64,000 nt of DNA from an uncultured bacterium (GTDB lineage: Bacteria; Verrucomicrobiota; Lentisphaeria; Victivallales; Victivallaceae), in contig CASFRF010000067.1 in assembly GCA_949297015.1 (NCBI GenBank), forward strand, positions 1 to 64,000. The letters run 5' to 3'. Numbering within the stretch: the first letter of the stretch is position 1; every line of letters begins with the position of its first letter. Below, in pieces: positions 9,827 to 15,399 of the stretch. The notes below the pieces were generated by a model. The model was given only the letters and a program-made list of their open reading frames with translations, had not been told where the DNA came from and did not search any database. Made by a program: the position numbers and the translations under genes.

Positions 9827-9943
9827 GTCCGGGAGCCGCCCCCGCCCCGGAAAAATCGAAAAAAAGCAATTCTCACCGTTCGCTCATCCTCCGCTAACCG
9901 ACGCCGGGTATGGTAATGGCAACTCCTAATGGAAAGGATTGCC

Positions 9944-10288
9944 ATGAAATCAGAATTGACCGATCGGACCGTGCGCGTGGAATGCCGTCCCGAACCGGAC
10001 TCCGGAGACTCCCGGATCCTGATCGGGAAGGTGCTGGCCGAAAACTCCCTCTATCTGCTCGTCAAGGGGCGGCTCTTCCGCCGCCGCGCGGTGGCCGGGC
10101 ACGCCGCCGAAATCCGGGGCGAGCCCCCCGCACTCCAGGCCGTCCCCTGGCACCGGATCCGGAGAATCGTGCTGATCGAAGACAAGGCGAACTTCCGGGC
10201 GGCGCTGCGAGGCGAACTTGCCGCGGATCCGACCGTGCTCGACTCCGAACCGGCCGGTCCGGTTCCGGCGGAGTGTTATCATGGGTAA
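9944..10288 (+). CDS. Small protein of unknown function, first gene of the secretin-like cassette
   Basis: A 114-residue protein that I do not recognise. It has no signal peptide or membrane segment. The central part alternates hydrophobic strands (RILIGKVLAENSLYLLVKG, then VPWHRIRRIVLIED), which could form a small SH3-like or LSm-like barrel; that is only a fold guess. ATG 9944 is preferred over an ATG at 9929 because GGAAAGGA (9931-9938) sits at the right distance. Its stop overlaps the start of the lipoprotein gene by eight bases, so the two are probably translated together. Context suggests a cytoplasmic accessory to the exported proteins encoded next. Confidence 0.7.
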   Translation: MKSELTDRTVRVECRPEPDSGDSRILIGKVLAENSLYLLVKGRLFRRRAVAGHAAEIRGEPPALQAVPWHRIRRIVLIEDKANFRAALRGELAADPTVLDSEPAGPVPAECYHG

Positions 10289-10718
10289 AAAACTCCGCCT
10301 CTTGCCGGTGCTGCTGGGCGCCGTGCTGATCGCGCTGTTCGGCGGCTGCCGGACCTCCGCGCCGCCGCCCGCCGCCGCCCCCCCGGATCCCGGCCGGGAG
10401 TGTGCGGAGCGACTGGTCCGGGCGCTGACCACGGACGACTACCGGCCGGTCCCGCCGCTGCTGGCCCCGACCGCGGCCGAAACCCTGACTCCGGAGAACT
10501 TCGCGGCGCTGACCGCCCAGCTGCGGAAACTCGGCGAACTCCGGAGCGTCGAATTCGTCACCCGGCTGGAACTGCCGGTCTTCCGGGCCTACGTCTGGAA
10601 ACTGCGGTTCGAGACCGAACGCCCGGGGCAGTCGCCCCGGGTCCATGAAAAGCTGCTACACCTCATCGTCGGCAATCCGGACGCCCGCTGTCAGGTTTTC
10701 GGACTGTCTCTGCAATAA
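10281..10718 (+). CDS. Small outer-membrane-type lipoprotein of unknown function
   Basis: A 145-residue protein with a lipoprotein signal: basic MGKKLR, a hydrophobic segment and lipobox LFGGC with Cys21. The residue after the cysteine is Arg, which does not suggest inner-membrane retention. A Pro/Ala-rich linker follows, then a globular domain of about 110 residues with one further cysteine near the end (DARCQVFG). I do not recognise the family. It is followed within 32 bases by two secretin-like genes. Small lipoproteins next to secretins are sometimes pilotins that guide secretin assembly, so a pilotin-like role is a reasonable inference but nothing in the sequence proves it. Confidence 0.7.
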   Translation: MGKKLRLLPVLLGAVLIALFGGCRTSAPPPAAAPPDPGRECAERLVRALTTDDYRPVPPLLAPTAAETLTPENFAALTAQLRKLGELRSVEFVTRLELPVFRAYVWKLRFETERPGQSPRVHEKLLHLIVGNPDARCQVFGLSLQ

Positions 10719-10749
10719 CCCCCATGTCGATCAATAACGGAGTTTGCTG

Positions 10750-12219
10750 ATGAAAATTCTTCCCCTGTTCGCCACTCTTTCCGGCATCGCCCTGCTGACG
10801 GCAGTTCCGGCCCCGGCCCGCGAAACCCCAACCCCCGGCGACGACGCCAAAATCCGCCGGATCCGCTTCAAGGAGGACGACGCCCAGAACGAGATGACCT
10901 CCAAGATCTACACGCTCAAACACCTCAAGGCCAACGATCTGGTGCCGTTCCTGCTGGGCGCGGTCAAGCGCTACGCCCGGAACTCGGCCGTGGACCGGAT
11001 CAACTACTCGGCCGGGAAACAACAGCTGGTGGCGGTCACCTGCCCGGTGGGGATGATGCCCTACGTCGACCGGCTGGTGGCCACGCTCGACCGCGACGGC
11101 CTCCGCGACGCCAACGGTTCGCCGATCGACGGCACCGGCATTCTCCGCTACGTCTACGAGCCCCGGTTCCGCTCCTCGCCGGAGCTGGTCGAACTGATGA
11201 TCAAGGCGGGGATCCCCTCCAACGCCGAGGCCGGCGCCGATCAGGACGCGGTGGTCGCCTACGATTCCCACACCAATTTGATCTACTGGAAGGACTCGAT
11301 CAACAAGGACAAGGACCTCCGCAAATACCTGGCCTGGCTGGACCGCCCGGTGCCGCAGGTCACCCTCACGCTCCGGGTCTACGAGGTGCGCGAGAGCAAA
11401 CTGCGCGACCTCGGAATCGACTACCTGGCCTGGAAGAACGGCCCCGGACTGGATCTCTTCGGAACCGGTTTCAACTTCCTGTCCATGCACTTCAACGAGC
11501 TGGTGATGGACGCGGTGCTGAGCCACGCGCCCGAGCTGGCGAATCTGGCCTCCGGCTCCTACGGCGGCTTCTTCTTCGCCCCCGCCTTCGACGCGAGCTT
11601 CATCCGCTGCCTCCAGCAGGACGGCAACGCCGCCGTCTCCGCCTCGGCCAGTTTGACCGTGGCCAACGACGCGGAGGGCTCCTACGAGGTGACCTTCAGC
11701 CCCGAATACCAGAATCTGAGCAAAGGCGATCAGGACCGCACCACCGTCGAGCTGTCGCTGCCCTCGGATTTGACCATGACCATCGGGCAGCCGACCGTCT
11801 GCCTCTCGCTCCCGACCGACGGCTCCGGGGTGCAGACCTTCACTCCGGAGACCTGTCGTCAGGCCACCGGCGTACTCAACTTCCAGTACCGCATGGCGAC
11901 CTGCCACACCGTGGAACGCAACAACTACGGCGCAGAACTCGGTGACTACGGACTCAGTTCCAGCGCGGTCACCGTCGCGCTCAATCAGGAGCAGCTGCTG
12001 ACCAGCTGGAGCAAGGAGACCGAGGTCGAACAGACCGTCGGCGTCCCCTTTCTCTGCGAGCTGCCGATCCTTAAGTACCTCTTCGGCACCACCACCGTCA
12101 ACCGGGAGCAGACCCACTACTTCCTGACGGTGCAGGTCCAGCCGATCCACCCCGACCTCGAGCTCGGCGGCATCTCCGGCACTTTGCTGGAGATGACCGA
12201 GCTCTTCCCCGAACGTTAA
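10750..12219 (+). CDS. Divergent secretin-like protein 1
   Basis: A 489-residue protein with a signal peptide (MKILPLFATLSGIALL, cleavage near APARE). An N-terminal region with KIYTLKHLKANDLVPFLLG resembles secretin N-domains. Around residue 217 VPQVTLTLRVYEVRESKLRD and LGIDYLAWKNG match the start of the secretin channel domain. The C-terminal VPFLCELPILKYLFG with HYFLTVQV is the typical secretin end motif. The true start is the ATG at 10750 after ACGGAG; a TTG two codons upstream is possible but lacks a better site. It is 30 bases from a second secretin-like gene with the same layout. No secretion ATPase or inner-membrane platform gene is nearby. Confidence 0.75.
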   Translation: MKILPLFATLSGIALLTAVPAPARETPTPGDDAKIRRIRFKEDDAQNEMTSKIYTLKHLKANDLVPFLLGAVKRYARNSAVDRINYSAGKQQLVAVTCPVGMMPYVDRLVATLDRDGLRDANGSPIDGTGILRYVYEPRFRSSPELVELMIKAGIPSNAEAGADQDAVVAYDSHTNLIYWKDSINKDKDLRKYLAWLDRPVPQVTLTLRVYEVRESKLRDLGIDYLAWKNGPGLDLFGTGFNFLSMHFNELVMDAVLSHAPELANLASGSYGGFFFAPAFDASFIRCLQQDGNAAVSASASLTVANDAEGSYEVTFSPEYQNLSKGDQDRTTVELSLPSDLTMTIGQPTVCLSLPTDGSGVQTFTPETCRQATGVLNFQYRMATCHTVERNNYGAELGDYGLSSSAVTVALNQEQLLTSWSKETEVEQTVGVPFLCELPILKYLFGTTTVNREQTHYFLTVQVQPIHPDLELGGISGTLLEMTELFPER

Positions 12220-12249
12220 CCCCCTTCCGCCACAGGAGAGACGAAGATC

Positions 12250-13866
12250 ATGAATCGGAATTTGTCCCGCTTCGCCCTGGCCGCCGCCCTGGTCCTGAAC
12301 GCCGCCGCTGCCGCGGCCAACCAGCAGCCGACCGGAAACCACAACCCCGCCTACGGCTCCTCGCAGGTTCAGGCCCAACTGCGCCTGAACGTGGAATCGG
12401 ATACCGACGTGGTTCACTTCATCCGCGACACCGCCGATCCCAGAATCATCACCAAGGCCTATGTGCTCAAACACGCCGATCCCTACTCGATCCGGCCCTA
12501 TCTGCGCGAGATGGTTCAGGCCACCCGCGTGGACTACACCGCCCCGGCCGGGGCCCCCGAAAATCCGGACTACTACAACATCTATGAAAAGGCGCCGACC
12601 GGAGTGGAATGCCTGAAGTACATGGACGGCACCGGCGTGGTGATCGTCTCGGCCGAGGAGTACCGCTTCGCCGATCATCCGGGCGGCATGGGGATCGATG
12701 CGCTGGTCGCCCGCCTGGATCAGCCGGGAATCATGAACTCCTCCGGCCAGCCGAAGTACCTCTACTTCCCGAAAAACCGCCCGGCCCGGGAACTTCAGGA
12801 GATGGTCAAACTGGTCGGCGCCAACGTCTCCAACGACACCGTCGAACTGATCGGAGGCAAGGACAAGGTGGAGTACGACTCCGCGCTGAACTGCCTCTTC
12901 TTCAACACCGCGCTCTACTCGCGCAAGCACATCGAAGCGATGCTCAAGCGCTACGACATTCCCCACCCCGAAGTCCGGCTGCGCTACACCGTCTACGAGC
13001 TGTTCGCCGAAAACGACGGCCGGATCGGCGCCGATTTCCAAGCCTGGAAGAACAACGACGGGGTGAACTTCTTCTCGACCGGTGCGATCTTCCGCGACAA
13101 CTGGGCGAACACCTTCGCCGGCGGCCTGACCCGGGGCGCCGGCTGGGCCGACACCAGTTACTTCAACTTCAATCCCAAGTGGAACACCCGCTACCTCGAT
13201 TTTCTGGTCTCCCGCGGCCGGGGCCGGATCGCCTACTCCGGGGATCTCGCCATCCAGAACGGCAGCACCGGGGTGATTGACAAACAGACCGGGCTCTTCC
13301 TGGTGGAGACCGCCGGAGACACCACGGAAAATCCCAATGCCGGCCCGGAACTGGAGGTGGCCGGTGAATCGGGCTTCCGTTTCCTGCTGGCCGCCACCCC
13401 GTCGATCACCGCCGGGGCGACCACGTTGAAACTCGGTGTCTACACCCGGTCGCTGACCGGCTATTTGTCCGACGGCAAACCCCGGGTCTCGACCTACGGC
13501 AAACTCGTGGACGGTCTGCCGGAACTCACCACCACGGTCATGATCGGCAATCGCGGAACCCGCTTCTTCCTCGGCGGCATCGAAAAGACCGAAACGGTCC
13601 GGGTCAGCAACGGCATTCCGCTGCTCAAGGATCTGCCGGGACTCGGGTGGCTCTTCTCCACCGAGAGCGAATCGACCAAGAAATCGCAACTGGTGCTGGT
13701 CGCCGAATGTGAGCTGGTCCGGCCCGATGCGACGCTCCCGGAGGAGGCGCGGAAGACCATCGAGACCATCCGGAGCCGGGAGCCGGAGGCCGGTACAGTC
13801 AATCACTATGGTTTTGGTCAGTACTACCTGGATCCGGCGAAGCGTCCCGACTTCAATCTCGATTGA
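12250..13866 (+). CDS. Divergent secretin-like protein 2
   Basis: A 538-residue exported protein (signal MNRNLSRFALAAALVLNAAA) that repeats the layout of its upstream neighbour. It has KAYVLKHADPYSIRPYLREM near residue 78, HPEVRLRYTVYELFAEN and a shared AWKNNDG segment around 260, and a clear secretin terminus IPLLKDLPGLGWLFSTESES followed by KSQLVLVAECELV. The two are probably paralogues: both carry the WKN-x-G and the VPFL/IPLL...LPxLxxLF motifs, although overall identity looks low. Secretins form outer-membrane channels of type II/III secretion and type IV pili. This one has a C-terminal tail of about 40 residues past the secretin motif. It ends at a strong hairpin (13876-13908). Confidence 0.75.
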   Translation: MNRNLSRFALAAALVLNAAAAAANQQPTGNHNPAYGSSQVQAQLRLNVESDTDVVHFIRDTADPRIITKAYVLKHADPYSIRPYLREMVQATRVDYTAPAGAPENPDYYNIYEKAPTGVECLKYMDGTGVVIVSAEEYRFADHPGGMGIDALVARLDQPGIMNSSGQPKYLYFPKNRPARELQEMVKLVGANVSNDTVELIGGKDKVEYDSALNCLFFNTALYSRKHIEAMLKRYDIPHPEVRLRYTVYELFAENDGRIGADFQAWKNNDGVNFFSTGAIFRDNWANTFAGGLTRGAGWADTSYFNFNPKWNTRYLDFLVSRGRGRIAYSGDLAIQNGSTGVIDKQTGLFLVETAGDTTENPNAGPELEVAGESGFRFLLAATPSITAGATTLKLGVYTRSLTGYLSDGKPRVSTYGKLVDGLPELTTTVMIGNRGTRFFLGGIEKTETVRVSNGIPLLKDLPGLGWLFSTESESTKKSQLVLVAECELVRPDATLPEEARKTIETIRSREPEAGTVNHYGFGQYYLDPAKRPDFNLD

Positions 13867-13875
13867 GTTTCACCG

Positions 13876-13908
13876 CCCCGCGCCGCCTGAAATATCGGCG
13901 GCGCGGGG
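13876..13908 (+). terminator. Hairpin terminator after the secretin-like cassette
   Basis: A perfect 12-bp stem, CCCCGCGCCGCC (13876-13887) with GGCGGCGCGGGG (13897-13908), loop of nine. It is followed only by an interrupted T-rich stretch (TTGACTTTTGAT), which doubles as the -35 region of the next promoter. Confidence 0.65.
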
Positions 13909-13937
13909 TTGACTTTTGATGTTTGGCCGTTTATATT
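13909..13937 (+). promoter_or_regulatory. Promoter of the RsbU-like phosphatase gene (TTGACT N17 TATATT)
   Basis: TTGACT at 13909-13914 and TATATT at 13932-13937 with a 17-base spacer. It abuts the terminator hairpin of the preceding operon. The predicted 5' leader is only about 13 bases and contains a GGAG site. Confidence 0.75.
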
Positions 13938-13956
13938 GACCGAAAACCGGAGAATC

Positions 13957-15399
13957 ATGTACTTTTGGCCGATCATCATCATTCTGCTGCTCGGGGGCGC
14001 CTTCTGGGCCGTCGCCGGCAGACTGCGCCGCCGCTGCCGCCGGCTGGACGGCGCCCTGGCCAAATCCCGGCGTGAATACCGGGAACTCAGCGATTTTCTG
14101 GCCCAGATGACCTCCGGGCTGCAGGAGGACACCGGCTTCGCCGACGCCATGCACAGCGTGGCCCGTCACTTGGCTGATCAGCTCGGGGCGGAGGCGGTGG
14201 CGGTGTACGAGTTCGAAAACGGCGTGCTGACCGTCAGCGGGGTTGCCGGGCTCTACCCTCTGGTGCGCACCGGGAACCGGCTGATCCTGACCAAACCCCA
14301 CCACCTGTTCGAGGCGTTGAAGCGGGAACCGGTGGTGCCCGGCACGGGCTTTCTCGGCGAAGTCGCCGCGCTCAAACGTCCGGAACTGATCTCCTCGGCG
14401 GCGAACGATCCGCGGTTCGCCGACTACCCCGACTCCGACCGGCTGGGCAGCATCATGGCGGTGCCGCTGCTGCGGGAGCCGGACCATTCGCTGCTGGGGG
14501 TGATCTGCGCGGTCAACAACCGGCAGGGGCGGCAGACGCCGTTCTCCGAAGAGCAGTTCGCCCGGCTGCAGTCGATGGAACCACAGGCGATCATCGTGCG
14601 GGATTTGATGCAGGCCTACAGCCGGAACAGCCGCCAGCAGCGGATCGATCAGGAGCTGGATTTCGCCCGCCGGGTGCAGTATTCGCTGTTGCCGCCCTCG
14701 TTTCCCTCGTGGAATCAATTTTCGGTGACCGCCTTCACCCGCTCGCTCAAGGAGGTCAACGGCGACTACTACGACTTCGTGGAGATCGACTCCGACCGAC
14801 TGCTGATCGTCATCGGCGACGCCTGCGGCAAGGGCATTCCCGCCTGCATGATGGCGGCGATGGTCCGGAGCATGGTGCGGGCGCTGGCTGAAAACTTCAC
14901 CAATCTGACCGACTTTCTGCGCAGCATCAATCGCAAAATGCAGCAGAACACCGAGGCGGACAGCTTCATCACCTTGGGCTGCTGCCTGCTGGACCGCAAA
15001 AATCTGATGCTCGAATACGGCCGGGCCGGGCACACCGAGCTGCTGACCTATGTCCGGCACCACATCCGGGTGATCGAACCGAACGGCATGGCGCTGGGTG
15101 CGCTGCCCGATGAATTCGCCAACTTCGACACCATCTGTCTGTCGTTCGAGCCGGGCATGGCGTTTCTGATGTTCTCCGACGGTCTCACCGAAGCGGTCAA
15201 CGAACAGGGCGAGGAGTTCGGGCTTCCCCGGCTCAAGGAGGCCTTCCGTCGGGCCGGCGACCTCGGGGACGCCCCCGATGCGACCATCCAGCGGATTCTG
15301 GACGCGGTGCACGAATTCGCCCCCGAGGCGGGTGACGACCAGACGCTGATTCTGATCCGGCACTCGGAATCGTCCGTTCCGGCTCCGGCCGGGATCTGA
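13957..15399 (+). CDS. Membrane-anchored GAF-PP2C phosphatase (RsbU/SpoIIE family)
   Basis: A 480-residue protein. An N-terminal transmembrane helix (MYFWPIIIILLLGGAFW) is followed by a short coiled segment, a GAF domain at about 45-215 (GTGFLGEVA, MAVPLL, LLGVICAVNN) and a PP2C-type phosphatase domain at about 220-465. The metal-binding motifs of the RsbU/SpoIIE group are present: GDYYDFVEI, VIGDACGKGIPACM, MFSDGLTEA and DDQTLILI. Such phosphatases dephosphorylate anti-sigma-factor antagonists in partner-switching pathways and sense a ligand through GAF. No STAS antagonist or anti-sigma kinase is adjacent. ATG 13957 is chosen over an upstream ATG because of its CCGGAG site and the promoter position. 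Confidence 0.9.
   Translation: MYFWPIIIILLLGGAFWAVAGRLRRRCRRLDGALAKSRREYRELSDFLAQMTSGLQEDTGFADAMHSVARHLADQLGAEAVAVYEFENGVLTVSGVAGLYPLVRTGNRLILTKPHHLFEALKREPVVPGTGFLGEVAALKRPELISSAANDPRFADYPDSDRLGSIMAVPLLREPDHSLLGVICAVNNRQGRQTPFSEEQFARLQSMEPQAIIVRDLMQAYSRNSRQQRIDQELDFARRVQYSLLPPSFPSWNQFSVTAFTRSLKEVNGDYYDFVEIDSDRLLIVIGDACGKGIPACMMAAMVRSMVRALAENFTNLTDFLRSINRKMQQNTEADSFITLGCCLLDRKNLMLEYGRAGHTELLTYVRHHIRVIEPNGMALGALPDEFANFDTICLSFEPGMAFLMFSDGLTEAVNEQGEEFGLPRLKEAFRRAGDLGDAPDATIQRILDAVHEFAPEAGDDQTLILIRHSESSVPAPAGI

Follow-up and report, generated by a model that had tools for sequence, protein, structure and literature searches.

A tandem secretin pair with a PhoB-type promoter box in Victivallales, a candidate outer-membrane channel for phosphate uptake

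The four-gene cassette and its products

As shown in Table 1, four closely packed ORFs, all on the + strand, occupy positions 9944-13866 of the window (the whole 64,000-nt stretch of DNA that was analysed), in the order p1, lipoprotein, secretin A and secretin B. The host genome, placed in the Lentisphaeria/Victivallales lineage by its named relatives, comprises 2.2 Mb in 96 contigs and is 83% complete. The ATG of p1 at 9944 is preceded by GGAAAGG, and an alternative start is found upstream at 9929. The p1 and lipoprotein genes overlap by 8 bp and the gap between A and B is 30 bp. The GC hairpin behind B was skipped by the automatic terminator scan, whose loop limit is 8 nt against the 9 nt found here. 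Because the gene behind the hairpin has a sigma-70-like promoter of its own, it probably lies outside the cassette. The hairpin after B, with a promoter-like site right behind it, indicates that p1, the lipoprotein, A and B probably form a single transcription unit. The original prediction had described this layout of a cytoplasmic protein, a lipoprotein and two adjacent secretins, with an overlap or short gaps and a terminator at the end, and the ORFs, their spacing and the 12-bp hairpin bear it out.

Table 1. Features of the cassette and its flanks, in window positions.
Feature	Position	Strand	Description
Pho-box-like array	9872..9898	+	CTCAC-N6-CTCAT-N6-CTAAC; three half-sites, 11-bp period
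-10-like hexamer	9909..9914	+	TATGGT; 10 bp downstream of the Pho-box-like array
p1	9944..10288	+	Small cytoplasmic protein, 114 aa, no family match
Lipoprotein	10281..10718	+	145 aa; candidate pilotin or channel partner
Secretin A	10750..12219	+	489 aa; signal peptide, two predicted N-domains, C-terminal secretin domain
Secretin B	12250..13866	+	538 aa; signal peptide, two predicted N-domains, C-terminal secretin domain
Terminator-like hairpin	13876..13908	+	Perfect 12-bp stem (arms 13876-13887 and 13897-13908), 9-nt loop, tail TTGACTTTT; read straight from the sequence
Sigma-70-like promoter of the next gene	13909-13937		Directly behind the hairpin
Next gene	13909-15399		GAF + SpoIIE-type phosphatase

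The secretin assignment, for which a search with the Secretin family PF00263 had been proposed, held for both proteins. B matched over 172 residues (E=3.1e-16, 59.9 bits) and A over the C-terminal 57 matched residues (E=1.6e-7, 31.5 bits), both above the curated cut-off of 27.5 bits. AlphaFold models, each built from 84 sequences, had moderate confidence (mean pLDDT 75.7 for A and 74.3 for B). Secretins made up all of the roughly 40 best PDB matches of each model, with resemblance to the GspD, InvG, PilQ and pIV structures. The models thus show a predicted secretin fold with N-domains in both A and B. Each model has two N-domains only, with a low-confidence N-terminus, and the N0 docking domain family gave no match in either protein up to E=1. 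Within the genome the sole second match of A is B (27% identity, E=1.4e-17), and the two are, by sequence comparison, distant paralogues. The AWKN motif that had been noticed in both proteins is real and conserved, as WKNGP in 114/122 A proteins and as WKNxxG in 128/130 B proteins. A and B share with the secretin superfamily (GspD, PilQ, SctC, RcpA, pIV; PF00263) a signal peptide and N-domains followed by the C-terminal secretin domain, but they differ from it in being two diverged secretins in obligate tandem, with no machine genes and, in the search up to E=1, no N0 match.

The two small proteins are less widely shared. p1 had no family match in profile searches; homologues adjoin three other cassettes (L099, L100 and L118), all in or near phosphate-linked clades, and 16 residues are invariant across the window p1 and these three. 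The lipoprotein carries the lipobox LFGGC, of which Cys23 is invariant in 23 aligned members. Its family was found at 35 cassette loci, nearly always on the same strand and immediately upstream or downstream. In PulD-PulS and GspD-AspS, too, the secretin gene has a gene for a small lipoprotein next to it, but searches of the cassette lipoprotein against Pfam and NCBIfam gave no pilotin family match up to E=1; DUF3887 matched below threshold only (E=0.1). In one clade (L158, L160, L161, L168, L169, L176, L184, L185) the lipoprotein gene lies upstream and a small MarR-type regulator gene directly downstream of B.

Distribution, neighbours and promoter boxes of the family

A lies directly upstream of B on the same strand at 122 of the 132 unique B loci, and at 119 of these 122 the two genes are no more than 60 bp apart; the B loci without an upstream A are mostly contig ends or fragments. 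By gene order, A and B are an obligate tandem pair. The original prediction had called for a survey of the co-occurrence of all four genes. A and B do occur together nearly always and the lipoprotein often (35 loci), while p1 recurs at the three loci named above only. B matches were present in 58/61 genomes, up to 19 per genome, the weaker ones including ordinary secretins, and many copies per genome are common in Victivallales. In a survey of 388 genomes from the phylum, the strong matches came from the same order (Victivallales) and from one genome of another family of the class; outside these the survey found general secretin similarity only. One family of the order, f8, had no cassette among the 388 genomes. 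A literature search of incomplete coverage returned no account of secretins as nutrient channels, nor of the A/B family.

The recurrent neighbours are transporter genes. PstS is the next gene at 12 loci, mostly with more Pst genes after it; at L178 the cassette has PhoB-PhoR upstream and Pst downstream, and at L193 it has a PiT transporter. Other clades adjoin FeoA-FeoB, an NMT1-type ABC transporter or an SNF (Na+) symporter, and some adjoin MarR-type regulators or M48-type peptidases. The cassette-linked phosphate, iron and amino-acid importers were seen in related gut bacteria. Polytopic membrane proteins form 21% of operon neighbours vs 9% of the background, an approximately 2.5-fold enrichment whose p-value is optimistic because the loci are related. 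At many cassettes no transporter gene is adjacent. In one clade (L045, L142, L145, L149, L153, L156) the cassettes adjoin amino-acid permeases, and several of these loci also carry Orn/Lys/Arg or glutamate-type decarboxylases, an arrangement similar to that of acid-resistance antiport systems.

At the window locus the genes adjoining the cassette are not pst, and the link to phosphate is made by the promoter box and the clade. The nearest relatives of the window B are 57-62% identical to it, and their clade has PstS downstream in several members; this sequence grouping places the window copy in a phosphate-linked clade.

A PhoB box consists of direct repeats with an 11-bp period, located about 10 bp before the -10 element. 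Upstream of p1, three CTNAY repeats with 11-bp spacing are followed, after 10 bp, by TATGGT. In the whole 2.2-Mb genome the triple pattern has two exact sites only, and the reversed pattern, used as control, has none. One site is that of the cassette. The other lies 50 bp before a response-regulator/kinase gene pair; the families that match this pair best are of PhoB and PnpS/PhoR type, with scores under the formal cut-offs. The pstS gene of the same genome, which is above the PstS cut-off, has a two-copy box 83 bp upstream. Five relatives have triple boxes upstream of pstS, at distances of 49-98 bp, and a sixth has one 79 bp upstream of an A gene. A TAnnnT hexamer at the same 10-bp spacing follows the box at phoB, in 4/5 of the relatives' pstS promoters, at the A gene of the sixth relative and in other cassettes. 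The relatives' total of triple sites was not above the reversed-pattern control, so that support there rests on the positions of the CTAAY/CTAAC-rich sites.

The strict box with the -10 spacing was present in 11/122 cassettes vs 33/20000 random segments. Among 26 strict sites in 1.5 Mb of fetched sequence, a pool enriched for such loci whose tally serves to illustrate specificity rather than to give an unbiased rate, 12 belong to cassettes, 5 to pstS and 1 to phoB, and 8 are unassigned. The box occurs in 7/18 phosphate-clade cassettes vs 9/104 others, a comparison that is partly circular because the half-site was picked by eye from some of these promoters; the independent tests of the box are the search of the own genome and the pstS promoters of the relatives. 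Taken together, these positions show a predicted PhoB-type box common to the cassette, phoBR and pst, at which PhoB would bind in the cassette promoter. With the E. coli Pho-box consensus CTGTCAY, phosphate-clade promoters were not separable from random, and the lineage box was read from the sequences instead. A perfect triple box with -10 spacing also occurs at L244 (genome G018, contig C1 near 2674166), where the reading frames downstream are unmatched to phosphate genes.

Boxes of an iron type were found as well. TTAG-N6-CT[AT]A, which fits the DtxR/IdeR consensus, occurs at 7/122 cassettes, all in the FeoAB clade and its sister clade, vs 0.77% of random segments. Four members of the FeoAB clade (L053, L069, L070 and L071) have two DtxR/IdeR-like sites each upstream of gene A, and the Feo-linked cassette at L063 has no such site. 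The E. coli Fur box was not enriched in the Feo clade.

Relation of the pair to secretion systems

The usual view of secretins is that of export gates belonging to large machines. That no secretion ATPase, platform protein or pseudopilin gene adjoins the cassette had been stated beforehand and holds for the window; none recurs at the relatives' loci, and such genes are found on other contigs, together with secretins other than A and B. Searched against the machine-specific secretin families, A and B reached 40-46 bits at best and passed none of the cut-offs, which are at least 238 bits. The genome has six secretin matches, namely A, B and four others. On contig C62 a GspD-like secretin is encoded beside T2SS-like ATPase, platform and pseudopilin genes. 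Contig C81 (L198:2703-7868) carries another secretin pair, of a different kind from A-B, in which tandem Amuc_1098-like secretins of 864 and 848 aa stand beside T4P-assembly-like genes. On contig C37 (L197:8567-13585) a GspD-like secretin gene is directly followed by genes for a MacA-like adaptor, an ABC ATPase and a MacB-like permease, and this secretin may substitute for TolC in an efflux pump.

The original prediction was that A and B could form a hetero-oligomeric channel, with the lipoprotein as pilotin, possibly to serve the numerous pseudopilins of the lineage. Its first half, read as a two-protein channel with the lipoprotein as partner, is reasonable, as both proteins are secretins, the pair is fixed and the lipoprotein recurs. 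The service to pseudopilins is very improbable. Many pseudopilin-like N-methylation proteins are indeed encoded in these genomes, some of them a few genes from cassettes (19 loci), but the position and strand of such neighbours vary from cassette to cassette. The T2SS- and T4P-like sets have secretins of their own, with neither ATPase nor platform gene next to A and B; the recurrent neighbours are inner-membrane solute transporters and regulators, and the clade and the promoter box, the same as that of phoBR and pstS, point to phosphate.

A Pho-regulated export channel is the strongest rival. Under phosphate or iron stress the A-B pair would release scavenging enzymes, for example phosphatases, through a borrowed T2SS platform, in the manner of Hxc of Pseudomonas, whose complete T2SS gene set is Pho-regulated and serves the export of a phosphatase. 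The cassette would share with Hxc a secretin in the phosphate-starvation response but consists of the secretin pair, the lipoprotein and p1 only. A and B are both secretins, and a T2SS-like ATPase, platform and pseudopilins do exist on C62; that set, however, has its own GspD-like secretin, which leaves no free secretion platform. The cassettes adjoin transporters rather than secreted enzymes, the N0 search described above gave no match up to E=1, the models show two N-domains only, with a low-confidence N-terminus, and export leaves the FeoAB and permease/decarboxylase cases unexplained. We therefore regard export, regulated by nutrients, as unlikely.

A proposed role in nutrient uptake

We consider it fairly likely that the cassette is a Pho-regulon operon, in which a two-secretin channel with its lipoprotein would act as an outer-membrane pore for phosphate uptake. 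Under phosphate limitation PhoB would bind the 11-bp repeat array and switch the operon on. Assisted by the lipoprotein, A and B would reach the outer membrane, where they would assemble into a ring, either mixed or stacked. Phosphate would enter the periplasm through this ring, to be taken up by PstS and PstCAB. The sequences show the secretin fold, the pairing, the recurrent linkage to transporters and the promoter box in common with phoBR and pst; from these we infer PhoB binding, hetero-oligomerisation, channel activity, the direction of uptake, the substrate and the role of the lipoprotein. The proposed role resembles that of PhoE and OprP/OprO, which are likewise outer-membrane proteins under PhoB control together with pst, A and B being predicted to be so. 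PhoE and OprP/OprO, however, are porin trimers of 16-stranded barrels, whereas A and B are secretins.

The pore reading has against it that the gate of wild-type secretins is usually closed. Passage of small solutes through a secretin is possible, because leaky mutants of the phage pIV secretin admit maltopentaose and antibiotics (PMC8563730).

An outer-membrane ring without solute transport, structural or serving in envelope stress and induced by phosphate, iron or acid stress, would fit the clades that adjoin acid-resistance-type decarboxylase/antiporter pairs, MarR-type regulators or M48-type peptidases. It is quite unlikely, given the recurrent pairing with importers of unrelated solutes and the fact that the matching clades carry phosphate-type or iron-type boxes.

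With the phosphate-uptake pore as the case at the window locus, duplicated A-B pairs of relatives may each serve a nutrient other than phosphate (ferrous iron, amino acids and others), and a matching regulator would control some of these pairs. The channel genes would be transcribed with the matching inner-membrane importer, or under the same regulator.

In a survey of two porin-type families only, TonB plug domains were above cut-off in 2/61 genomes and Porin_O_P PF07396 in 0/61; PF07396 had no match in A or B either. BamA-type Omp85 was found in 20/21 genomes, the exception being the incomplete genome of the window, and its presence indicates double-membrane cells. Family f8 has neither the cassette nor TonB plugs, so that solutes must have further ways in. 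Of the two genomes with TonB plugs, one (G040, at L201) belongs to the few in the order that have no true cassette; it has three TonB plug-domain proteins, a single case that is suggestive of replacement. The probable role of the pair is that of an entrance for nutrients in bacteria without some of the usual ones. A wider proposal, which we put forward tentatively and hold to be somewhat doubtful, is that throughout the order hetero-oligomeric secretin pairs, one per nutrient and each under a matching regulator, take the place of TonB-dependent receptors and classical porins as the main gated import channels.

If the uptake reading is true, secretins have been recruited as nutrient channels. 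It gives a candidate function to a large lineage-specific secretin family of which the literature search found no description, and A and B would offer a testable answer to how solutes cross the outer membrane of Victivallales, which are nearly without TonB-dependent receptors.
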